Shown piece after piece: positions 1,635 to 14,381 of a stretch of DNA of 64,000 bases. Made by a program: the position numbers and the translations under genes. The notes beneath the pieces were generated by a model, which ran no database searches, was not told the DNA's origin, and worked only from the letters and a program-made list of their open reading frames with translations. Each line of letters starts with the position of its first letter. Position 1 is the stretch's first letter. The stretch comes from Parabacteroides goldsteinii (lineage in GTDB: Bacteria > Bacteroidota > Bacteroidia > Bacteroidales > Tannerellaceae), in the NCBI RefSeq assembly GCF_015550595.1, contig NZ_JADNBB010000018.1:1-64000 (forward strand), written 5' to 3'.

Positions 1635-1644
1635 ATTCAAAAAT
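1635..1644. repeat. Right target-site duplication of the IS4-type element
   Basis: ATTCAAAAAT, identical to 194-203. It lies 12 bases left of the WYL promoter palindrome at 1657. Confidence 0.85.
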
Positions 1645-1656
1645 AATAAATTTCTG

Positions 1657-1690
1657 TGCAGAATGGCTGCATAGTCAAATCATACCTTTG
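1657..1690 (+). promoter_or_regulatory. WYL-gene promoter with palindromic operator (copy 1)
   Basis: TGCAG (1657-1661), AATGG, CTGCA (1667-1671) form a 5-bp-arm inverted repeat. Eleven bases later comes a Bacteroidota -7 box, TACCTTTG (1683-1690), 27 bases before the ATG at 1718. No good TTTG -33 element is present; the palindrome sits where one would be. The same arrangement precedes the genes at 4214 and 4951, so it is probably a regulator binding site. The WYL protein encoded next to it is the obvious candidate regulator (inference). Confidence 0.65.
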
Positions 1691-1717
1691 CATCGTAACA
1701 TTTAAACGACAAAGGAT

Positions 1718-2752
1718 ATGCCTACAAATAAGAACGCAGCAATTAGATATCAAGCCCTCGATCGATGCTTGAGCAACTGGTCAAGAAGGTTCTATATAGA
1801 AGACCTTGTTGAAGCATGTAATGAAGCCTTGTATATCTATAATGGAGAAACGAAAGAAAATGGCGGTGTAAAGAAACGCCAGGTTCAACAAGACATGATA
1901 TTTCTCGAAAGTGAGGAAGGTTATAGAATGATGATTGATGGCATTAGAGATGGACATCGAAAATACTATCGTTACCATCACCGTGGTGATTCTATAAAGA
2001 ATCAGCCTATCAACCAGGAGGAACTAGATTTAATTCATGATGCTTTATTGCTACTGAAACGCTTTCAAGGTGTACCCCACTTCGATTGGATGGACGATGT
2101 AGAAAGACGATTATACACAACAAGTCAGTTGGGCGATAACACAAGGTCTGTTGTGACATTCCAGTCAAATCCATACCTCAAGGGTATGAAAAGCTACTAC
2201 AAGCCTTTATTTGATGCAATAGTCAATAAAAGGGTATTAAATATAGAATATCAACCATTCGGGAAAGAACCACGTTCTATAACCATTTCCCCATATCATC
2301 TGAAGCAATACAACAATCGCTGGTTTTTAATAGGCAAACAATCTGACTACAGTAAGCAATTGGCAAACATTGCTATAGACAGAATAGAAGGACTGAAAGA
2401 AACAACCATAACATATGAACCACTCAATGCAGACTTCGATTTTGAAGAATATTATTCCGATGTAGTTGGAGTTTCTGTAAACGATAGTCCGGTAGAGGAA
2501 GTCGTTCTTCACCTTAAAGATAGTGTTATGGGATATATCATTACCAAGCCTTTGCATGAATCACAATGTACCATCCCCAAACAGTTGGAAAATGGCGACT
2601 GGGAGATAACTTTAAAAGTGAAGGATAACTACGAATTGCGTTCTTTACTTAGATCCTTTGGTGAGCAGATAGAAGTAATTAGTCCTTCATCATTGAGAGA
2701 AAAGATGAAGGAATCAGCAGCCAGACTGAATGAAATATATTCCAAAAAATAA
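1718..2752 (+). CDS. WYL-domain transcriptional regulator
   Basis: A 344-residue cytoplasmic DNA-binding regulator. Residues 1-75 look like the winged-helix N-terminus of WYL proteins. The WYL domain follows from about residue 160, with the core YHLKQYNNRWFLIG and an IAIDRIEGL segment, and a C-terminal WCX-like region (FGEQIEVISP). WYL proteins sense a ligand, often nucleic acid, and commonly control phage-defence or DNA-damage genes. The start at 1718 is supported by AAAGGA seven bases upstream and the -7 box at 1683-1690. The IS insertion just upstream has not touched the palindrome. I infer that it regulates itself and the genes at 4214 and 4951. Confidence 0.9.
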   Translation: MPTNKNAAIRYQALDRCLSNWSRRFYIEDLVEACNEALYIYNGETKENGGVKKRQVQQDMIFLESEEGYRMMIDGIRDGHRKYYRYHHRGDSIKNQPINQEELDLIHDALLLLKRFQGVPHFDWMDDVERRLYTTSQLGDNTRSVVTFQSNPYLKGMKSYYKPLFDAIVNKRVLNIEYQPFGKEPRSITISPYHLKQYNNRWFLIGKQSDYSKQLANIAIDRIEGLKETTITYEPLNADFDFEEYYSDVVGVSVNDSPVEEVVLHLKDSVMGYIITKPLHESQCTIPKQLENGDWEITLKVKDNYELRSLLRSFGEQIEVISPSSLREKMKESAARLNEIYSKK

Positions 2753-2809
2753 TTTTTTACATGTATTTAAGAACTATAGGTGAGTAACTAATATTTAAAT
2801 CCATAAAAT

Positions 2810-4129
2810 ATGAAAGAGTTAACATGTCCCAAATGTGGTAGTATTTTTACCGTAGACGAAGCTGATTATGCTAGTATTGTTAATCAAGTCAAAAATGCCG
2901 AATTTAAGGAGGAGGTAGAACACAGACTCTCAGAATTGCATCAGCAAGCCATTGCTGAACAAAAAGCAGAAGTCTTGAAAGCAGAGCAAAAACTCCAGAA
3001 TGAGTTATCATCTCAAAAGCTGCAACTTAGTAAGAAAGAAACAGAAATAGCAACGTTGAACGAGAAATTGAATGGCATCGCTCAATCAAAGCAATTGGAA
3101 TATAAGGTTGAACTGGAACAGAAAGAAAGAGAGATTCTAGAGTTAAAATCTCAGATTGAAAGAAATGATGACAAACTGAAAATAGCTATTTCCGAGGAAC
3201 AGGGAAAAGCTCAGCAGAACCTTCATTCAAAAGACACAGAAATTTCGGAATTGAAGAGCCAGATAAACTCACAGAAAAATGAGGCTACCATCAGAGAAAC
3301 GAATCTGAAAGATGGTTATGAGTTGCAGCTTAAGCAAAAACAAGAGATGGTAGACTATTACAAAGACTTGAAGACAAAAATGTCCACAAAGATGGTAGGC
3401 GAAACTCTTGAGATACATTGCAATACAGAATTTAACCGTATACGACCAATGTTTCCTAATGCTTATTTTGAAAAGGACAATGACGCTTCCTGTGGTAGCA
3501 AGGGTGATTTTATCTTTAGAGATTCGGAAGAAGGGACAGAGTATCTGTCTATAATGTTCGAAATGAAAAACGAAATGGATGAAACCGCTACCAAGCATAA
3601 GAATGAAGACTTCTTGAAGAAACTTGACGAAGATCGTCGTTCAAAGAATTGCGAATATGCAGTCCTTGTATCATTACTGGAACCTGATAGCGAATTGTAC
3701 AATACCGGAATTGTTGATATGTCTCATCGATATCCGAAGATGTATATAATCCGACCACAGTTCTTCATTCCTCTAATCACATTATTGGTTCAAACGTCAA
3801 AGAAGAGTTTGGAATACAAAAAAGCTTTAATGGAAGCTCAAAGTCAGTCTGTTGATATAACTAATTTTGAAAGTCAATTAAATGACTTTAAGGATAAGTT
3901 TTCCAATAATTATCGTTTGGCTAGTGAGAAATTCCAGACAGCTATTGCTGAGATTGACAAATCAATAGATCACTTACAGAAAATTAAAAGTGCATTACTC
4001 GGTTCTGAGAATAATCTAAGACTGGCAAATGACAAAGCAGACAACCTGACCATAAAGAGACTTACTCGTGGAAATCCGACAATGAAAGCTAAGTTTGACG
4101 AACTGCATAGCGAAACGGATAATGATTAG
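2810..4129 (+). CDS. DUF2130 family protein (nuclease-like fold, zinc-ribbon and coiled coil)
   Basis: A 439-residue protein. The N-terminus has CPKCG at residues 6-10 within a ribbon-like start. A long charged helical region (about residues 30-190) should form a coiled coil. The DUF2130 domain follows from about residue 195, with KGDFIFRD and FEMKNE: an acidic residue then E-x-K, which fits a PD-(D/E)xK restriction-endonuclease-like core. Biochemical function is not known to me. The gap from the WYL gene is 57 bases with no own operator copy, so the two are probably cotranscribed. Nuclease activity is inference. Confidence 0.85.
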
Positions 4130-4150
4130 AGAAGGAAATATGGCTAGCAA

Positions 4151-4184
4151 TGCATATAGGCTGCATTGTTGGCCAATATCTTCG
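4151..4184 (+). promoter_or_regulatory. Promoter with WYL-type operator (copy 2)
   Basis: TGCAT-ATAGG-CTGCA at 4151-4165, then exactly 11 bases, then TATCTTCG at 4177-4184, one base off the TAnnTTTG consensus. The left arm differs by one base from copies 1 and 3. It is 30 bases before the ATG at 4214. Confidence 0.6.
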
Positions 4185-4213
4185 TATCATATTAACAATT
4201 AAAACTTATCATT

Positions 4214-4810
4214 ATGGCAAAGAAAGTAAAAGAGATACAGATATCTACACTTGAGGGACGTTTCAAAAAGCTTCATGATGCTGCCAATTTTGCGGAAGAA
4301 AATTGTAGAGCTATAGCTTTTCATGTTGATGAATTAAACCATTTCGATTTATTAGAAGAGCAAATCCAAATTATTGACCGTCTCAAAGTTGATATTGAAG
4401 AATGGTGCAATAAGTTTGTCCGTTTGGCAGAACAAATGCAAGATATTGAATCTCAATATTGGGACTGCATGACAGAAGACAAAACAAAATGTATACTTAT
4501 TGAAGATGTACCTACTTATAGTAAATCTGAAATACCAAATATATTCCAGATGACAGAAAAGCTATTCGAAATAGGTTATTATTCTATGGATGGCAGCACT
4601 GTTCAAAATCATCAATTTAGTAAAGAAACTATATTATTGAATATCAAAGAACTTTGTTCGAATACCTCTTTTTGCTTGAAAGCATTAGCGAATGCAAAAT
4701 ACGATGGGGTTTGGAAACCTGTAGAACAAACCATATCTGATATTTTCGATTCTGAACCTACTGGTTCTGTTTATTCATTATTAGAGATGTCGGGTATCGC
4801 AGATGATTAA
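4214..4810 (+). CDS. Hypothetical protein of the WYL locus
   Basis: A 198-residue acidic, mostly helical cytoplasmic protein with no signal peptide or membrane segment. I do not recognise the family. The first 90 residues (LEGRFKKLHDAANFAEEN onward, heptad-like) could form helices. It has its own promoter with the shared palindrome, so it is probably in the same regulon as the WYL gene. A role with the DUF2130 protein is possible but rests only on position. Confidence 0.7.
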   Translation: MAKKVKEIQISTLEGRFKKLHDAANFAEENCRAIAFHVDELNHFDLLEEQIQIIDRLKVDIEEWCNKFVRLAEQMQDIESQYWDCMTEDKTKCILIEDVPTYSKSEIPNIFQMTEKLFEIGYYSMDGSTVQNHQFSKETILLNIKELCSNTSFCLKALANAKYDGVWKPVEQTISDIFDSEPTGSVYSLLEMSGIADD

Positions 4811-4877
4811 ATCGTGATAGCAATATCATAAGGCAATCGTAATATAGATTTAATAGAATACCATTTTCTGTTATAAA

Positions 4878-4911
4878 TGCAGAAAGGCTGCATTGTCTCT
4901 CTATACTTTTG
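4878..4911 (+). promoter_or_regulatory. Promoter with WYL-type operator (copy 3)
   Basis: TGCAG-AAAGG-CTGCA at 4878-4892, 11 bases, then TACTTTTG at 4904-4911. Arms are identical to copy 1 and the spacing is the same in all three. It lies 39 bases before the ATG at 4951. Confidence 0.65.
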
Positions 4912-4950: not shown

Positions 4951-5529
4951 ATGAAGAAATTATTAATGTGTGTGACGCTGATTTGTTCAGCTTGTATGGT
5001 ATCGAATGCTCAGAATACTTCTGGCAAATGTTATCGTGGTTTTGTTGATGCCGGCTATGATGTAGGCATCGGTGATTATGACTTTGGTCGTTTCGTGATT
5101 AACACAACTCATGGCTATCAGTTCAACCCGTATATTTTCCTTGGCGCAGGTACAGGTTTGCACTTTATGTCAAAGTATGAAACGAAGAATATGGATATTC
5201 CATTGGATATTAGAGAAAGCAAAGTCGATATTCCTGTCTATGCGAATGCCCATGTAAACTTTACTAAAGGCAAGATAGCTCCATTCGTAGATGGGAAGGC
5301 AGGAACTTTCGTCACCAATAATGGCGGTATATTTTGGAATATCTCTGCCGGATGCAGAATATCTACCAACGAGAAACAAGCTGTAAATATCGCTATTGGT
5401 TACGCATCAGAAAAGTTGGAGTTTGAGACATTCAATAAATTCAACAGCTCACATGATATGAGCTACACTCGCAAGCCAAGAGCATTGGATACAGAATGCG
5501 TAACATTAAGGGTTGGGTATGAATTTTAA
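4951..5529 (+). CDS. Small outer-membrane beta-barrel protein
   Basis: A 192-residue protein with a signal peptide (MKKLLMCVTLICSACMVSNA, cleavage before QNT) and alternating amphipathic strands rich in Gly and aromatics, ending in a C-terminal aromatic (RVGYEF), as expected of an 8-strand outer-membrane barrel. NPYIFLGAGTGLHF and VNIAIGYA are typical strands of the family. Function is unknown. It heads a probable operon with the lipoprotein at 5555 (25-base gap) and the membrane protein at 6241, under operator copy 3. An envelope module under WYL control is unusual. Confidence 0.75.
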   Translation: MKKLLMCVTLICSACMVSNAQNTSGKCYRGFVDAGYDVGIGDYDFGRFVINTTHGYQFNPYIFLGAGTGLHFMSKYETKNMDIPLDIRESKVDIPVYANAHVNFTKGKIAPFVDGKAGTFVTNNGGIFWNISAGCRISTNEKQAVNIAIGYASEKLEFETFNKFNSSHDMSYTRKPRALDTECVTLRVGYEF

Positions 5530-5554: not shown

Positions 5555-6232
5555 ATGAGAAACTTTATCAAGTTGGCATCTTTGCCATCAATCAAAAAAC
5601 AATTATTTGTAATCCCTTTCATGGGTTTGCTCCTATCTTCTTGCGGAATGATGCAAAATTATATGGCATCTTATTCAGTAGGTCTTTCATCCGTTGAAAG
5701 TCCTGCAAATGCAAAGCAACAGTTCGGAGAGACAAAAGTCGTTGACTTTAAAGATGGAGAGGTTAACAAGTATCGCTATGAGGACGACTATATAGAGATA
5801 GTATGGTTCGTTAGCTCTAAACAGTTTAATTTTGAACTAAAGAACAAGACTACCCATTCAATGAAAATAAATTGGGATGATATAAGTTTTGTTGATATTA
5901 ATGGTAAAACAGGACGTGTAATGCATTCAGGTGTAAAATATACAGACCGTAATAATAGTCAGCCGTCCAGTACCATTCCTAGAGGAGCTAGTCTATCCGA
6001 TATCCTTTTGCCTACCGATAACGTATCTTTCATTTCAGGACAATATGGGGGTTGGAGAGAATCTAATCTTATTCCATCATTCTATAAGACTCAGGAATTA
6101 TTGAATGCAGGTGCACCAAGTTTTGTTGGTAAAAAAATGACAATTCTTATGCCTATTATCATTGAGAGCGTTCAGAATGACTATACGTTTGAGTTTAATG
6201 TGGACGAATGGATTAACAATAAGAATAAATAA
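5555..6232 (+). CDS. Lipoprotein, unknown function
   Basis: A 225-residue protein with an unusually long N-terminal region before the lipobox: a basic stretch, then FVIPFMGLLLSSC, with Cys at residue 30. A start at the internal Met before GLLLSSC would leave too short a signal. The mature part is beta-rich; FELKNKTTHSMKINWDDISFVD recalls immunoglobulin-like periplasmic domains. I do not recognise the family. Eight bases separate its stop from the next gene, so they are cotranscribed. Confidence 0.7.
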   Translation: MRNFIKLASLPSIKKQLFVIPFMGLLLSSCGMMQNYMASYSVGLSSVESPANAKQQFGETKVVDFKDGEVNKYRYEDDYIEIVWFVSSKQFNFELKNKTTHSMKINWDDISFVDINGKTGRVMHSGVKYTDRNNSQPSSTIPRGASLSDILLPTDNVSFISGQYGGWRESNLIPSFYKTQELLNAGAPSFVGKKMTILMPIIIESVQNDYTFEFNVDEWINNKNK

Positions 6233-6240
6233 TAATTGAT

Positions 6241-6636
6241 ATGGCTAATACTGTTCGTTCCATTTTCCTCGTGATTGCAGGAATTGCATCAATTGGACTT
6301 AGTATCCATTGTTTTAATATGAATGAGGGAGAATACTGTTCTGATTCCATGTATGGTGGTGATGCATATACAGGTATGCAAAATGCAAGTGCCACGGCAG
6401 CAAGAAATGTCAAGACACTCTCTAAAATTGTAAAATCCGGCTTCGGCTCAACTCTGCTTGTATGTGGATTAACGTTGATTGCATTTAGCATTAAAGGCAA
6501 GAAGGAAGAGAAAGATAATTTCTCAACATTCGCCGAATCTACGATTGTGAATAATAACGAAACTGCTGCTGTCGAAGAACAGGAAGAGGTTTCTATTAAT
6601 AATGAGCAACCTCAAAATGAGGAAACAAAAGCATAA
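6241..6636 (+). CDS. Small two-helix inner-membrane protein
   Basis: A 131-residue protein with predicted membrane helices at about residues 5-21 (SIFLVIAGIASIGLSIHCF) and 70-85 (TLLVCGLTLIAFSI). A short exposed loop lies between, and an acidic, Gln/Glu/Asn-rich tail of about 45 residues follows. It resembles small DUF3185-like membrane proteins in layout, but I cannot assign a family. It is the last gene of the 4951-6636 unit. Confidence 0.7.
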   Translation: MANTVRSIFLVIAGIASIGLSIHCFNMNEGEYCSDSMYGGDAYTGMQNASATAARNVKTLSKIVKSGFGSTLLVCGLTLIAFSIKGKKEEKDNFSTFAESTIVNNNETAAVEEQEEVSINNEQPQNEETKA

Positions 6637-6718
6637 TAAGCAATAAATAAATGAATGTGAGAGGGACATTGAGGACAACACTTATATTCCTTTCTTTTTA
6701 CTACCTAAAAAATAAATC

Positions 6719-7552
6719 ATGAATACTTTTAGACTTTATATCGCATTATTACTATCAGTCATTATCTTTTCAGGATGTTCCAATGATGATGACCCAGCAG
6801 TTGATAACGGTGCCCAAAACGCCCAGATTACAATAACAGAATATCAATGGAAATTTGGTGAGGTTTCGACTATCGGAGATTTATACGAACAGTACACGTA
6901 TGATTCAAAAGACAATCTTATTAAAAAGGAAACCAATCATTACTATAATTCTACTATTGGTAGGATTCCAAACTATTACACTTTCAAGTATGATGAACAA
7001 AATCATCTTATTGAAAGAAGTGATTACTCTTTTTATACATTGGACAATAAATACAAATACACGTTCAATTCCATTGATTCAATAGCTACTATGGAGGAAT
7101 ACACAAAAGAAGGTACATTATCTGAATCATGGATTTATACATATGACAGTCAACGTAGATTAATACAAGCGAAACAAACTTATGATTTAATTATCCCTTA
7201 TGTAGATGATTACTCTTATAATGGTAATGATGTTACTGTAGTAAGACATAGGGTTGACACTGGAGAATTATTCGGAACTACTCTGTTTGAATATGATGAC
7301 CATCGCAATCTTTTAAAAAAGACATGGACTAATGGGAAGACTGGGAAACAAGATCTAGAGGTTTATAACGAATATTCATATAATTCACAAGGTAAAATCA
7401 GCAAAGCAACAATACATGGATATTATAATAAAAATGATTTGACTTATAAAGAATATACATACAATTCTGATGGAACGATTCAAAGAATTCATGTATCATA
7501 CTCATTTAAAACTGACCAATCAAATTTGGATTATACATATTCAAAAATATAG
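6719..7552 (+). CDS. Lipoprotein with YD-type repeats
   Basis: A 277-residue lipoprotein: signal ending in IIFSGC (Cys 20), an Asp-rich linker (SNDDDPAVDNG), then at least five repeats of the pattern YxYDxxxxLxxK (YTYDSKDNLIKK, FKYDEQNHLIER, YTYDSQRRLIQA, FEYDDHRNLLKK, YSYNSQGKISKA, YTYNSDGTIQRI). Such repeats form beta-solenoid or shell-like folds in RHS and DUF4595-type Bacteroides surface proteins. No operator copy or -7 match is obvious in the 82-base gap before it. Function is unknown; surface exposure is probable from the acidic residues after Cys. Confidence 0.75.
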   Translation: MNTFRLYIALLLSVIIFSGCSNDDDPAVDNGAQNAQITITEYQWKFGEVSTIGDLYEQYTYDSKDNLIKKETNHYYNSTIGRIPNYYTFKYDEQNHLIERSDYSFYTLDNKYKYTFNSIDSIATMEEYTKEGTLSESWIYTYDSQRRLIQAKQTYDLIIPYVDDYSYNGNDVTVVRHRVDTGELFGTTLFEYDDHRNLLKKTWTNGKTGKQDLEVYNEYSYNSQGKISKATIHGYYNKNDLTYKEYTYNSDGTIQRIHVSYSFKTDQSNLDYTYSKI

Positions 7553-8713: not shown

Positions 8714-10393
8714 CTATAATTCAATAATATCAATCGGAAGTTTTTGTAATATTAGCTTAGATTCTTCACTTATACTTTCCACATTTATAAACAAACTATT
8801 CTTAGCTCTACTCATCCCAACATAATATACTCTATCTGTTGAATTATTAGATAAATCCGGTGAACTTAGTACTTTAATATCAGCTGGTTCATTAATAATC
8901 AGCAATATATTATCATATTCCTCACCCTTAGCTTTATGTATTGTCTTATGCATTGCTTGACAATCGGAAACCTTCATGCTTAATGCCATTTCTAAATAAG
9001 AATGCGAAAGATAAAAATCTTTTATCCTTCCCTTTTTAAGTAAGGTTAGTTTTTGATTTATATTGTGTTTAACAAATTCATAGAAATCATATAGACTACC
9101 ATCTTTATATTCATTTCTGTGATTTAATAACATTCGCAAAACAGATATGGTATGCTCACGATTATTATCCAGCAGGTCTAGATGGAACCATGCTTCTTTA
9201 AAATCATTGTTAAAAGCATATTCAACAGCCTTAAGATAAATTTTAATTTCAGTAGCCCTCTGAAAATCCGAATCAAAATCCGAATCAATAAGGCCTTTTA
9301 TATTTACGTCTGCTTCAGTTTTATATTTCAAAGAATTAGCAATAATGTTCGGGAAAGCTAGCGAATGGACATCATCAGTACAACTTATTTCGATAGCTTT
9401 TTGATACGCATTAAGTTTGTCCCCTACTAAAAAAATAGGTTTTATCCCAGAAGTTGTACCAATAGGAGTTTGGACAAAGTCAGTTCGTATACAATTAAGC
9501 AAGTTTACAATCTCCGGGCTACTTCTTCTATTTCCATGGATCTCATAATCTATTTGCCCCTGAACAGTAAAGGAGTCAAAGTTTGCAACTGAAGCTCCAA
9601 TGAAATCATATATTGTTTGTGCTTTATCACCAACGACACCTATTTTTACACCATATTGAGCTAATGATTTAATGAAATCCATGATAGTAGGTATAGTATC
9701 CTGAAATTCGTCTACAAAAAAATATGGGTACCTTGCTGCTAATATTCTATATATATATGGATGCTGCTTTAAGATTTCTATTGCTAGATATAGTACATCA
9801 TCATATGATAAAATGCCTTTTCCCCATTTCAACTCAACAAATTTATCATAAGCAAGCTGGGGTACAGAATATTTAGTTTCATGTCCATACTTATCTTCGT
9901 TTTTTATTAGATATCTTGGTGTAAACTTGATTGTATTTCCTGCTCTAGAACGCCACGTGCATTTTATTAAACCTTTAACGAGTGAATTTGGATTTACCCA
10001 CAAAGCCTTTATATCTCCTATTATTATATTTGCGAAAGCTTTTGTTTGAAATGGTTCTGAAGGAGAAACCCTTAAATTATTTATATCAATACCCCATTTT
10101 TCCGCATCTATATAAAGGAAAGGTTTTACAACTTGATTATATAGAAAACTGTGTATCGTACAAACGTCGACTAGAGAGTTGTCGTTTGGTATTCTTTCTA
10201 AAATAGTTTCTACACCAACATTTGTATACGATATACATGCTATCTTTCTTGATATTCCCAAAGATCTTCCATGAGCAAGAACGTTCTTTATATGAAGGGA
10301 AAGCCAATGAGTTTTCCCAGCCCCAGGACCTGCAGAAACTTTAAATGAAGATTCCGTTGGAATTAAAGTATCCGAATTTATTGTAATAGCCAT
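8714..10393 (-). CDS. gajB: UvrD/Rep-type superfamily 1 helicase, GajB-like (Gabija defence)
   Basis: A 559-residue SF1 helicase. Motifs in order: Walker A SAGPGAGKT (residues 20-28), motif Ia region ISYTN, Walker B VDEFQDT (227-233), GDKAQTIYDFIGA (motif III), NRRSSPEIV (motif IV), TIHKAKGEEYDNI (motif V) and VYYVGMSRAKN (motif VI). In Gabija, GajB senses DNA ends or nucleotide depletion and supports GajA nuclease in blocking phage. It overlaps the 3' end of the OLD-family gene by 16 bases, so translation is probably coupled. Somewhat longer than the described GajB of about 500 residues. A housekeeping helicase is less likely given this partner. Confidence 0.82.
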   Translation of the reverse strand: MAITINSDTLIPTESSFKVSAGPGAGKTHWLSLHIKNVLAHGRSLGISRKIACISYTNVGVETILERIPNDNSLVDVCTIHSFLYNQVVKPFLYIDAEKWGIDINNLRVSPSEPFQTKAFANIIIGDIKALWVNPNSLVKGLIKCTWRSRAGNTIKFTPRYLIKNEDKYGHETKYSVPQLAYDKFVELKWGKGILSYDDVLYLAIEILKQHPYIYRILAARYPYFFVDEFQDTIPTIMDFIKSLAQYGVKIGVVGDKAQTIYDFIGASVANFDSFTVQGQIDYEIHGNRRSSPEIVNLLNCIRTDFVQTPIGTTSGIKPIFLVGDKLNAYQKAIEISCTDDVHSLAFPNIIANSLKYKTEADVNIKGLIDSDFDSDFQRATEIKIYLKAVEYAFNNDFKEAWFHLDLLDNNREHTISVLRMLLNHRNEYKDGSLYDFYEFVKHNINQKLTLLKKGRIKDFYLSHSYLEMALSMKVSDCQAMHKTIHKAKGEEYDNILLIINEPADIKVLSSPDLSNNSTDRVYYVGMSRAKNSLFINVESISEESKLILQKLPIDIIEL

Positions 10394-12399
10394 TGAAGTG
10401 CATCGATAATATATTGCGGAACTACAAATTCTTCTTTAGTTGGATCGGAATTTTCCTTATAATAATTTTCTTCTAACGCCACACTAAGTGCTAACGCATT
10501 TTCTCCTTTACTTACAGAATTCAAATAACGAGCAGCTATCAGACCTTTCATTTTTTGGTCATTATCCCAACTCGTATTCAAATCTAAGGCTTCTTTTAAA
10601 GCAGTATTCTTTTTAGAGTCTCTTAGTCGTTCCTTCATTTGTTCTAATGTCGACAGATCCATCAGGTCTTTTAATTCATCAGCATTATTCATTTCTGCGA
10701 CCACTATTAATTTACATCTCGAATTTGCAAATGCCATATCATATTCTAAAGTTTTTCCAATCGAAATATCTTGACGAAAATATCTTATCGTTGGATGTGA
10801 TGAATATTTTTGCAATTCTGCTTCTGCATTACATGAATACTTAATATTCGGATAGATTCCATATTCAAATGGATAACATGCTTCGCCTTCACAGCATGGA
10901 TCTGTATCTGTTATGCATGCGACTTTTTTACTAATGTTATAGCCGTTATTATCAAACATTTTGAGAAAATGATGAAAATAACGACCTCCCATATTTACTA
11001 TTAGTACATGATCTTTTACTAAATCATACCCAAGGTATTTTGCAAACGTAGGTATTAACAACTTTTCCGCTATACCTTCAACAAATATAAGCTTTTCAGC
11101 AAAAAACATATCTGAACGTGTTGCATCTAGAAATCTCTGAACATATGCTTTTGAAGCAATATCATCATCTGAATTACTGTATTTAGTCCGAGGGTATCCT
11201 ATTCCATGAGAACCATATCCCTCATAATTTAAAGAAATCAAGCAGTCCAATGAGACTGCTGACACAATCTCTGGTGAATGAGTTGTAACAATTATTTGAT
11301 TAACATTATGTTTGGATCTATTACTGTTTAGGAAATTCAAAAATTGATATTGCATAGCTGGATGCAAGTGAGCTTCAGGTTCTTCTATTGCTAAAAGTGA
11401 ATATAATTTGGCTTGTCTCTTCATATAATTTCCGTCAGCAGAAGCCTGCATTTTTGCAAGTAATAACGACATATAAATTAGATTGTTATAACCTAAGCCA
11501 TTATTAGCAGCTGGTATTTCTACCCCTGTTTCATGCCTTATAATAAGTTTCAATACTGCCAATAGTTCCGATTCTGATAAAATTCCCTGAAAATCCGGCT
11601 CTACATTTCCAAAAGAAGCTCCAGTATCATTAGCATAATCAAGCAAGATTTTTTTTCCACTTTCAAGCCTATCTAATAAGAATTTCATAAGTGGTTTTGC
11701 TTGCTCTTTAAAAGCTTTTTGATTGCTTCGTAATTCTTCTTTAATTTGGTCCTCCTCCTTATCTTTGGACATTTTTATATCATAATCAATAAAAAAATTA
11801 AGGACATCACGCAACATTGGATTATATCCCATAAACATATTACGGCCTACATCACGCAAAGCATCAAGGAATTGGAAATCACATTTTTCAAATAGTTTAT
11901 TCAAGTTTTCTTTAGAGGCAGCACGATTACCACCCCACCTAAATGAGTCGTAAAAGCGAGAATATTCATTTCTAATTACATTCCATATTTCTTGATGGTT
12001 TTCTAGAGATTTGACATCTTGTATGTAATTTTCCTCTTGTTCTGAAGAAAGGGAAAATTGAAAATTTATTAATGCCTGATATGGTTTATTAAATTTCACG
12101 ATACAGCCACCCAAAAGACCAATTTCTTCGGACGTATCAGGCTCTTCTTCTGATTGTGATACTACTAATGAGATTTTTATTATTGGTGAATGTGCTTTCA
12201 ATATAGTAACATCAGTTTCACAAAACATGTCATCAATAGTGATATGATAAGTATTATTAAGAGCTAAAGAAATAGCTTTCAGTAAATTGCTTTTTCCTGA
12301 GTTATTAGCACCAATTATCATATTAATACCATCATGAAATGGTATTTCCGCATTTTTATAACTTCTATATCCTTGTATCAAAATTTTTGAGATAAACAT
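10378..12399 (-). CDS. gajA: OLD-family ATPase-TOPRIM nuclease, GajA-like (Gabija defence)
   Basis: A 673-residue protein with an ABC-type ATPase domain and a TOPRIM domain. Walker A is GANNSGKS (30-37), Walker B LLAIEEPEAHLHP (336-348), and the H-loop is TTHSPE (about 373-378). TOPRIM residues follow: FVEGIAE (E442) and ITDTDP (DTD 498-500). GajA is a nucleotide-regulated DNA nickase of the Gabija anti-phage system. About 95 residues longer than the best-known GajA, mainly in the C-terminal part, so it is a divergent member or a related OLD-helicase pair. First gene of the two-gene unit; 88 bases separate it from rloB. Confidence 0.85.
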   Translation of the reverse strand: MFISKILIQGYRSYKNAEIPFHDGINMIIGANNSGKSNLLKAISLALNNTYHITIDDMFCETDVTILKAHSPIIKISLVVSQSEEEPDTSEEIGLLGGCIVKFNKPYQALINFQFSLSSEQEENYIQDVKSLENHQEIWNVIRNEYSRFYDSFRWGGNRAASKENLNKLFEKCDFQFLDALRDVGRNMFMGYNPMLRDVLNFFIDYDIKMSKDKEEDQIKEELRSNQKAFKEQAKPLMKFLLDRLESGKKILLDYANDTGASFGNVEPDFQGILSESELLAVLKLIIRHETGVEIPAANNGLGYNNLIYMSLLLAKMQASADGNYMKRQAKLYSLLAIEEPEAHLHPAMQYQFLNFLNSNRSKHNVNQIIVTTHSPEIVSAVSLDCLISLNYEGYGSHGIGYPRTKYSNSDDDIASKAYVQRFLDATRSDMFFAEKLIFVEGIAEKLLIPTFAKYLGYDLVKDHVLIVNMGGRYFHHFLKMFDNNGYNISKKVACITDTDPCCEGEACYPFEYGIYPNIKYSCNAEAELQKYSSHPTIRYFRQDISIGKTLEYDMAFANSRCKLIVVAEMNNADELKDLMDLSTLEQMKERLRDSKKNTALKEALDLNTSWDNDQKMKGLIAARYLNSVSKGENALALSVALEENYYKENSDPTKEEFVVPQYIIDALQWLLQ

Positions 12400-12487: not shown

Positions 12488-13093
12488 TTACATATTCTTT
12501 AATTCATGGATTAATAGGCTTAATTCGGAATAAGAATGGTCTCGCATTCCTGCATTCTTTTCCTTCATTGACTGCTCAGCATTCGCAATAGCATTATCAA
12601 GACTTCCACCATGCTTTTCAAAGTAAGCATGAAGACCTTTACACTTAACGAAAAAGTCTATAGTCTTACGATAATCGCAAAATTGATTCAAATCTTTCAA
12701 AAGAGAATCCTGATCAGAGTACATACGAGACGTGTACTTGAAATAATAAAGGAAGAAAAGTTCTGTGCAACGATGGGTCTCAAAGAACTTGACCTGACAA
12801 TTAATACCTTTCTTTGGCTTTACAATAGGGTTCTCGTATTTCTTCTTCAATCGAACATATTGAGTACGCTCAGGTTCTTCATCTTTTGTGTCCATATCAA
12901 TCACACAGAATATGTAATCATATCCCATAGAGATTCCATCTGCTATTTTCAGCTCCAGTTCTTTTATACTCGTGTGTTTCGGATAATCCGGTTTAATTGT
13001 TAAACCCTTAAACACATCATTAAGAGACTTGAAGTAGAAAAATTCCGTTGGACCTTCACCCAAAATCAATGTTGTCTTATGCAACCTACCCAT
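12488..13093 (-). CDS. rloB: RloB-domain protein (AbiL/RloAB defence)
   Basis: A 201-residue RloB-like protein with a TOPRIM-type pattern: LILGEGPTEFFYF near the N-terminus and YIFCVIDMDTKDE (acidic pair) around residue 65-75, consistent with metal-dependent phosphoryl chemistry. The start at 13093 is preferred over one six codons earlier because GGAGG lies six bases before it. It begins one base after the rloA stop, so the two are coupled. RloA-RloB pairs occur in restriction-modification loci and as AbiL-type abortive-infection systems. Confidence 0.82.
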   Translation of the reverse strand: MGRLHKTTLILGEGPTEFFYFKSLNDVFKGLTIKPDYPKHTSIKELELKIADGISMGYDYIFCVIDMDTKDEEPERTQYVRLKKKYENPIVKPKKGINCQVKFFETHRCTELFFLYYFKYTSRMYSDQDSLLKDLNQFCDYRKTIDFFVKCKGLHAYFEKHGGSLDNAIANAEQSMKEKNAGMRDHSYSELSLLIHELKNM

Positions 13094-13094
13094 A

Positions 13095-14381
13095 TTAATC
13101 CTCCATATCAATAAAAATGCTACCTAGTTCAGGTTTAGCACCAAGTCTTCCAATGCGATAGGAATTATACAGAGAAAGATTCTTATGAAGTCCAAACGAA
13201 TCTCCACGAGCATATTCGGACGAAGCTGTTTCTTTGTTTTTTTCAACGAACCATACCACGCCACGGTTTTCATTGATAAGATCCTGAGAAAGCAATGCTG
13301 TCTCTTGACTGGTAATAATAAGTTGTGACTTGTCAGAATTGAAGAGAAATACATTCAGATAATAGAACAACAAATCATAATGAAGGTCTTCACCAAGTTC
13401 GTCCAAATAGTAGACATGAGAACCGGTAACCATATCATACAAGGTATTAAGAATACGGACATACTTCATTGTCCCTTTAGACTGAAGCCTTAGTGGAATT
13501 TCAAAAGTTCCATTCTTTGAATGATTCAAAAAAGTAATAGACTCAACAGTTGTCTTTAATAGAGCCTCTTTCATGTTATCAGGTATGTTCTCCTGCTTGA
13601 TTCGCTCTCTGAACTCTTGAGAAACAGTTCGGTCTTCAATCGTAGGCTTATATTCAACAATGTTCAAGTCTGCTTTACAAAGCATCTGATTAAAGAATTT
13701 GCGTTTCTTGTTGTCAGCATAAGCTTCGTTCAAAATATCCACAATACCTTTTTCTTTTTCCCCATCTCCATCAACATCATGACAATTGGACATAATCCAA
13801 TTGCTTAATATATTAAAAGGCTCTATATCTTCCTTAAAAGCCGCTTTATTACAAACGGAAAGTACGCTATGATTATTGAGCGTATTCTCCCTTATACTAT
13901 CTTGTGTTTTGATTTGTAGTTTAAGGCTCGGACCAAATTTAATATCAGCCTGAACCTTGTCTTCTACAAAAGTACGTTCATAGAACAATGACTTGGCTTT
14001 CTTGGGATAATAATTCAGAATTTCTTTGAGTATATAGTTCCCATTGAAAGTTACATCATAATCATATCTTATACCTTCAGCAAAAAATGAAACATGCATT
14101 TCTGTTGGCTTATCCGATGTCAAAGCAAAAGGAATGTACCCTAATATTTTTTTTGTGGCATTTGACTTAGGCATAACCATTAAACGAAATACTTCATTCA
14201 TGGCAATGAGCATATTTGATTTTCCTGAAGCATTAGAGCCATACAGGATAGCCAATTTGTATAAGAATACGTCTTCTGCAACTTCAGAAACAAGTTCAGA
14301 AGCAGGTCCTTTAGCAACAAAACTCAGTTCTTGTTTGTCGCCTATTGACAGGTAGTTCTTAACCCAAAAATCTCTAATCAT
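13095..14381 (-). CDS. rloA: RloA/AbiLi-type AAA ATPase
   Basis: A 428-residue ATPase of the AAA_15/AAA_21 type: FWVKNYLSIGDKQELSF at the N-terminus, Walker A LYGSNASGKSNML (48-55 core), LQSKGTMKYVRILNTL as ABC-like signature, Walker B VYYLDELGEDLH, then a TSQETALLS switch region. Together with RloB it forms a two-gene defence unit in which the ATPase is thought to gate the effector. A -7 box (TACCTTTG) lies 39 bases upstream. No restriction-modification genes are present here, unlike the original Rlo loci. Confidence 0.85.
   Translation of the reverse strand: MIRDFWVKNYLSIGDKQELSFVAKGPASELVSEVAEDVFLYKLAILYGSNASGKSNMLIAMNEVFRLMVMPKSNATKKILGYIPFALTSDKPTEMHVSFFAEGIRYDYDVTFNGNYILKEILNYYPKKAKSLFYERTFVEDKVQADIKFGPSLKLQIKTQDSIRENTLNNHSVLSVCNKAAFKEDIEPFNILSNWIMSNCHDVDGDGEKEKGIVDILNEAYADNKKRKFFNQMLCKADLNIVEYKPTIEDRTVSQEFRERIKQENIPDNMKEALLKTTVESITFLNHSKNGTFEIPLRLQSKGTMKYVRILNTLYDMVTGSHVYYLDELGEDLHYDLLFYYLNVFLFNSDKSQLIITSQETALLSQDLINENRGVVWFVEKNKETASSEYARGDSFGLHKNLSLYNSYRIGRLGAKPELGSIFIDMED

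Follow-up and report, generated by a model that had tools for sequence, protein, structure and literature searches.

DriD of Caulobacter crescentus (PDB 8TP8, 9PFQ, 9PFV) is a WYL-domain activator of the DNA-damage response, at whose promoters, according to the available extract of a preprint (PMC12340889), two half-sites with a 7-base spacer form a site that overlaps the -35 element and keeps the same distance to the -10. PafBC, a mycobacterial WYL heterodimer that works by sigma adaptation, inserts between the promoter and sigma domain 4 and needs two arginines for the binding of single-stranded DNA (ssDNA), as stated in the accessible part of PMC11804915. WYL regulators are also already known at defence islands (PMC9122601, in extract). 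Here we describe a stretch of 64,000 nucleotides of Parabacteroides goldsteinii (NCBI RefSeq assembly GCF_015550595.1, contig NZ_JADNBB010000018.1, positions 1 to 64,000; hereafter the window) in which a palindrome with the core TGCA-N7-TGCA occurs three times at and behind a gene encoding a WYL protein, each time 11 bases upstream of a promoter-like box. We hypothesize, with a probability of about 0.57, that this palindrome is the operator of a DriD/PafBC-like activator of defence promoters, the binding, the activation and the signal being putative.

The WYL protein of the window shares with DriD its domain order and a similar length, and finds in it its best fold match; likewise, the DriD site, in the same extract, is a pseudo-palindrome with a 7-base spacer that overlaps the -35 at a fixed distance from the -10. 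Nevertheless, the half-site is CGAC/GTCG in DriD and TGCA here, and the present locus belongs to another phylum with another promoter code, many of the targets being defence genes of the same island. PafBC has the same WYL and WCX domains and, in the part of the source available, is an activator whose promoter motif replaces the -35 contact, but it is a heterodimer with a -26 motif, whereas the site described here is symmetric and presumably bound by a homodimer. In Mycobacterium smegmatis the WYL activator SiwR has its palindrome placed between the -35 and the -10, ahead of the operon next to it, although in the accessible text (PMC10693628) this is one local operon of DinB-like genes and not of defence genes. 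BrxR and CapW, which repress BREX and CBASS, resemble our system in being winged-helix WYL regulators at defence islands, with palindromic or inverted-repeat sites and, as here, genes adjoining phage-defence systems. In contrast to the present core, which lies upstream of the box, their operators are placed over or downstream of the -10 in the extracts available, and their profile and fold match to the WYL protein of the window is weaker.

The palindrome and its distance to the -7 box

Sigma-70-type promoters of Bacteroidota carry a -7 element, TAnnTTTG, and a -33 element, TTTG. The elements concerned are the following:

1657..1671, plus strand: candidate operator copy 1, TGCAGAATGGCTGCA, preceding the WYL gene
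1683..1690, plus strand: -7 box TACCTTTG, 11 bases past copy 1
1638..1645, minus strand: -7-like box TATTTTTG, an exact match, phased to copy 1 in its minus-strand reading
1718..2752, plus strand: WYL regulator of 344 amino acids, with a predicted N-terminal winged helix and WYL and WCX domains (Pfam)
4151..4165, plus strand: candidate operator copy 2, TGCATATAGGCTGCA
4177..4184, plus strand: -7-like box TATCTTCG, one mismatch to TAnnTTTG, 11 bases past copy 2
4878..4892, plus strand: candidate operator copy 3, TGCAGAAAGGCTGCA
4904..4911, plus strand: -7 box TACTTTTG, 11 bases past copy 3

The original prediction had described the element as TGCAG-N5-CTGCA, separated by exactly 11 bases from a TAnnTTTG-type box in three promoters, with no further copy seen by eye in the intergenic regions. 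The palindrome is indeed exact at 1657-1671 and 4878-4892 and has one mismatch at 4151-4165, and its coordinates as well as the spacing were confirmed for all three copies. Two details were revised: the boxes at 1683 and 4904 match TAnnTTTG but the one at 4177 has a mismatch, and the three copies are real but their conserved core stops one base earlier towards the centre in either half, being TGCA-N7-TGCA, perfect in all of them, with variable inner G/C. Allowing up to one mismatch, TGCAG-N5-CTGCA occurs 5 times in the 64 kb against 1.14 expected, a count that none of 100 shuffles reached. When the window was scanned for the core and the box together (up to one mismatch), the three copies and the minus-strand reading of copy 1 were returned and none besides, in agreement with the reading by eye. 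The minus-strand box of copy 1 is probably not a working promoter, because its flank was cut by a transposon and the box is partly made of the adjoining repeat. In phased sites, the core ends 11 bases before the box and the site is centred 19 bp upstream of it, neither overlapping the -10 nor lying downstream of it.

A genome-wide search, proposed together with the original prediction, found the palindrome joined to its box to be non-random, but the palindrome by itself also occurs elsewhere. Bare TGCAG-N5-CTGCA has 14 copies in the 6.5-Mb genome (reversed control, 3) and, with 10 of these 14 exact copies outside three WYL loci, was rejected as a specific signal; the copies on contigs C4 and C7 had no phased box in the stretches inspected and were taken as chance. 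In contrast, TGCA-N7-TGCA-N11-TANNTTTG is found 7 times (control, 0), 6 of them at three loci with a gene of this WYL clade: three readings belong to the window locus, one to contig C5 and two to C32, the seventh being on C20. C5 and C32 carry two further genes of the same clade (37% and 36% identity), and all three clade WYL loci found in this genome have a phased site. On C5 the WYL gene runs at its end into the site and is followed by a gene for an HsdM-type methylase, and on C32 one site points away from the WYL gene to a gene for a SAVED-domain protein, a site with a one-mismatch box precedes an N6 methylase and another site precedes a PDC-M33A-like protein. The N6 methylase-like gene, a gene for a small protein without Pfam match and that for the PDC-M33A-like protein form one island (L119, from G000:C32, 5157-10520), with phased sites in front of the first and the third. 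The phased palindrome of C20 (L120, from G000:C20, 5278-5292) stands, as judged by eye, amid integrase-like and primase-like open reading frames (ORFs), and no WYL gene was recognised in the 11 kb around it.

The WYL clade across Bacteroidota

The comparison set consisted of the best 80 of 391 WYL relatives in genome contigs, with best-segment identities of 40-81%. These loci, mainly of Bacteroidales and Flavobacteriia but also of Chitinophaga, Saprospiraceae and others, are mutually related, and 79 are distinct by a 100-base segment. Sequence no farther than 250 bp from the WYL gene totals 39 kb and contains 75 cores, against 33 in the 744 kb elsewhere, and TGCA-N7-TGCA is present within that distance in 62 of the 80 loci. 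Among 160 palindrome designs (16 self-complementary tetramers, gaps 3-12), TGCA with gap 7 reached 75 and the next best 12. The placement of the box is equally sharp: of 216 oriented cores, 46 are followed by an exact TAnnTTTG at offset 26 and at most 2 at any other offset from 15 to 60, and allowing one mismatch raises the count at offset 26 to 104, the other offsets averaging 2.8 and never exceeding 10. For a fixed box, gap 7 yields 46 and other gaps 0 or 1. Chance is ruled out by the shuffles, by the contrast between near and far sequence, by the 160 alternative palindromes and by the offset and spacer scans.

With a box of up to one mismatch, 70 of the 75 near cores are phased on one strand or the other, and 92 distinct phased cores are found in 66 of the 80 loci, 25 just upstream of the WYL gene, 45 just downstream and 22 further off; in 59 loci a phased core comes within 250 bp of the gene, and at least two are present in 22 loci. 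The WYL protein, which had been named as the nearest candidate regulator, holds this place well, considering these 59 of 80 clade loci next to the loci of other WYL matches, where any core at all is found in 2 of 26; the same count lends no support to a signal shared by WYL proteins in general. Across 198 genomes of Bacteroidales the phased pattern has 39 matches and the reversed control 3, the control having a different composition (ACGT) that may understate chance. By hand count, with the two readings of copy 1 kept separate, 18 of the 39 have a clade WYL gene at most 10 kb away, far beyond chance by a rough binomial estimate that uses a rough share of sequence. The link between the WYL protein and TGCA-N7-TGCA is well supported by these sequence comparisons, and the protein very probably binds the site to control anti-virus and DNA-repair genes.

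Activation, repression and other readings

Pfam recognises the WYL (1.9e-11) and WCX (7.1e-13) domains of the protein, both above cut-off, and gives no helix-turn-helix hit, but in the AlphaFold model helices 5-19, 27-42 and 53-64 and a two-strand wing make up a winged helix. Taken in blocks, the confidence of this model is 70-90 over residues 1-90, except for 64 at 41-50, whereas for the whole model a predicted local distance difference test score of 74 and a predicted template modelling score of 0.38 leave the placement of the domains unsure. Foldseek with this model returned DriD (3e-15, aligned over its full length), PafBC (2e-13), CapW (1e-8) and BrxR (2e-7). A profile search of solved structures likewise placed DriD and PafBC first (7e-8 to 2.8e-7), with BrxR and CapW at 0.005 or worse, and a single-sequence search of the PDB with the WYL protein came back empty. 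By profile and fold the protein is thus closest to the DriD/PafBC-type activators. R54, Q55 and D59, in what is predicted to be its recognition helix, are invariant (40 of 40 sequences), which would fit a conserved half-site.

The palindrome covers the usual -33 place of the boxes in these loci, as had been proposed. Numbering bases upstream of the box (P), and using as comparison 93 generic TAnnTTTG boxes in the loci, which are not mapped promoters, TTG is found at P-23 or P-22 in 10.8% each of the latter. In 25 motif promoters it is found in none at either position, P-23 being excluded by the core itself, and over P-24 to P-21 it occurs in 1 of 25 against 25 of 93 other boxes (p 0.014). The element in the -33 place is thus the palindrome, although about one fifth of the sites (20 of 104) have a TTG slightly nearer the box.

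In the mechanism that we favour, TGCA-N7-TGCA would serve as operator for the adjacent WYL protein and, throughout Bacteroidota, for the relatives of that protein, and a WYL homodimer would read the two TGCA half-sites through its N-terminal winged helices. The WYL domain would be loaded with a signal, perhaps nucleic acid from infection or DNA damage, and the loaded regulator would hold RNA polymerase at the promoters, as DriD and PafBC do, and thereby activate the WYL-DUF2130 operon, to which it belongs, together with two other transcripts from the island. Activation is moderately favoured over repression, a choice that the original prediction had left open, because of the base-exact spacing, the fold, and the tandem units of site plus box, such as those of L072 and L115, in which each site has its own box.

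Several observations weigh against this interpretation. The deficit of TTG in the -33 place is largely built in, as the core excludes it at P-24 and P-23, and at P-22 to P-20 TTG is not clearly rarer than in the other boxes (6 of 46 sites with an exact box and 20 of 104 when one mismatch is allowed, against 15 of 93). DriD promoters have poor -35 elements, a trait that the present promoters may or may not share. After this recount the missing -33 element was withdrawn as independent proof of activation, and the probability of the activator reading was therefore lowered from 0.62 to its present 0.57. As for the signal, it may differ from that of PafBC, whose ssDNA-binding arginine pair is half lost: of the equivalents of R201 and R204 of PafC, the second is kept in 40 of 40 sequences, whereas the first, kept in DriD, is alanine in 37, proline in 2 and serine in 1. 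An ssDNA signal is therefore not assured, and the WYL protein is not filed as an ssDNA-sensing regulator of the DriD type. Moreover, 14 of the 80 loci are without a phased site (3 of these had fewer than 70 bases on one side), and the genes behind copies 2 and 3 in the window are without known function.

The defence-linked WYL regulators considered here, BrxR and CapW, act as repressors in the accessible parts of PMC9122601 and PMC9122588. The same WYL protein may thus sit as a dimer on the -33 region of the same operator and block the polymerase until an infection signal arrives, a possible arrangement that we nonetheless consider rather doubtful. Defence genes, which are costly, make up many of the targets, a dimer sitting over the -33 region could plausibly act as a block, and the TTG found at P-21 or P-20 in the spacer of 20 of 104 phased sites could serve as the -33 element that such a promoter would use. 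On the other hand, the CapW sites overlap the -10 and the BrxR box lies downstream of it, in the same extracts, whereas in the present case many loci keep one spacing, exact to the base; the nearest folds are those of activators, and the tandem copies of L072 and L115 each have their own box.

The phased sites away from clade genes bear on both the activator interpretation and a quite unlikely alternative, in which an unlinked global regulator binds the palindrome and happens to control WYL-linked defence islands. For 21 of the 39 Bacteroidales matches the nearest clade WYL gene, if any, is more than 10 kb away, including those around the helicase genes of L121 and L125 and, in the present genome, the C20 site (C20:25258). 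One of the 21 is 15 kb from a WYL gene (G168) and three, all on a single G063 contig, are grouped around the gene for a PIF1-like helicase of PDC-M16A type. Many of these matches may be chance, as several look to be, and a WYL gene can act at a distance, whereas an unlinked regulator would have to account for the strong clustering at one WYL clade, for the 2 of 26 other WYL loci with any core and for the site at 3 of 3 clade loci of this genome. That the palindrome is instead an RNA or DNA structure (a terminator, a processing site or a recombination site) is very improbable, since, although it forms an inverted repeat that often follows shortly after the stop codon of the WYL gene, its 4-base arms would make a weak hairpin, no T-run follows the window copies, by which a terminator or hairpin was set aside by eye, and what is constrained is the distance to the downstream -7 box.

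In the open-licence literature, as far as the titles and abstract starts of the matches listed go, no paper was found on the operator of this clade or on WYL sites in Bacteroidota, and no term starting with "bacteroid" appears in the main texts of PMC9122601 and PMC9122588. New here are the TGCA-N7-TGCA rule, the constant distance that the site keeps to the -7 box of Bacteroidota, and the fact that it recurs at several promoters and with several kinds of defence gene. To our knowledge, how anti-phage genes are switched in Bacteroidota, abundant gut bacteria, is largely unknown. We tentatively propose a class of Bacteroidota defence promoters in which the -33 place is taken by TGCA-N7-TGCA exactly 11 bases upstream of the -7 box, read by DriD/PafBC-like WYL activators, the unit wiring defence genes together; this generalization could well fail. 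If true, a portable unit of site and box would join unrelated defence genes into one inducible response, recurring in islands before restriction-modification genes, retron-like reverse transcriptases (RTs), ATPases, DUF2130 proteins and helicases. Such a unit could be used to find new defence genes, for example those behind copies 2 and 3. A rule by which the regulator of a promoter can be predicted from sequence makes the proposal directly testable, offers a way into DUF2130 and further unnamed genes as candidates for a role in defence, and could show that WYL proteins also recruit polymerase in a phylum with promoters unlike those of E. coli.

Genes behind the sites and layout of the window

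From the loci with phased sites, 30 downstream proteins were hand-picked for variety, mostly from a list of 58 entries, as first ORFs by a simple rule, and 25 of them fall in methylase, restriction, RT, AAA, DUF2130, RmuC or HIRAN families of Pfam. They comprise 12 N6 methylases (6 with HATPase_c above cut-off), 2 HsdR-type proteins, 3 DUF2130 proteins, 3 RTs, 2 AAA_15 ATPases, 2 HIRAN proteins and 1 RmuC, and the remaining 5 are a HAD hydrolase and four proteins without family. PADLOC groups the downstream proteins tested with type I restriction, with retron RTs and with defence-system ATPases, the RT of L095 being closest to retron RTs. RT genes are present in L060, L087, L095, L128 and L131 by Pfam or PADLOC, retron-like where PADLOC was run, and by eye behind the operator in L105, L110 and L112. 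The RT ORFs begin about 270-430 bases past the phased operator, which leaves room for a retron RNA, and judging from this arrangement the operator may drive such an RNA in these loci. PIF1-like helicases stand behind phased operators in L121 (Pfam; PDC-M16A in PADLOC) and, by eye, in L125 and L128, and sbcCD in L123 (Pfam); in G215 one of the 18 matches near a clade WYL gene, here 6.5 kb away, precedes sbcD-sbcC. The helicases and sbcCD hint at DNA-repair genes in the regulon.

The remaining features of the window considered here are:

First 204 bases: leading stretch, ahead of the transposon
About 205-1634: transposon, with the transposase at 300-1529 (DDE_Tnp_1, 7.8e-28)
2810..4129, plus strand: DUF2130 protein of 439 amino acids (Pfam, 1.4e-91)
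4214..4810, plus strand: 198-amino-acid protein without family match
4951..5529, plus strand: 192-amino-acid protein without family match, the first gene behind copy 3
5555..7552, plus strand: three ORFs (225, 131 and 277 amino acids)
8714-12399, minus strand: Gabija pair (PADLOC; GajB 2.3e-179, GajA 1.4e-247)

The transposase combines DDE_Tnp_1 with DUF4372 in Pfam, and the element is presumably of the IS4 type. Its ends are ATTGGTGTCCGATAAAA, the right one 22 bp left of operator copy 1, and ATTCAAAAAT is a repeat on both of its flanks whose right copy overlaps the leftward box. To its right follows a row of plus-strand genes, those for the WYL, DUF2130, 198-residue and 192-residue proteins and further ORFs. 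Judging from their spacing, the WYL and DUF2130 genes probably form one operon, and the ORFs at 5555..7552 are, from their orientation, possibly the rest of the copy-3 transcript. NCBIfam names none of these four proteins, PADLOC gives nothing for the DUF2130 and 198-residue proteins, and the latter has no match in phages, although an ORF resembling it by eye comes after a phased site behind the WYL gene of L038. The 192-residue protein has a start that looks, by eye, like a signal peptide. As to DUF2130, three papers that carry the name look unrelated to its function from their titles and abstract starts, and a comparison with plasmid DNA returned 38 records, the 20 listed being DUF2130 genes of Lactococcus and Bradyrhizobium, with one Phocaeicola among the other 18; in the one Lactococcus plasmid inspected no WYL gene is annotated next to DUF2130. 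The Gabija pair, 3.8 kb after copy 3, has no phased operator in front of it in the 64-kb scan for core and box, and its position after the WYL locus suggests a defence island. Beyond it, at 12488-14381 on the minus strand, a small protein and an AAA-ATPase-like protein resemble, by eye, what we take to be a pair of the RloB/RloA type.

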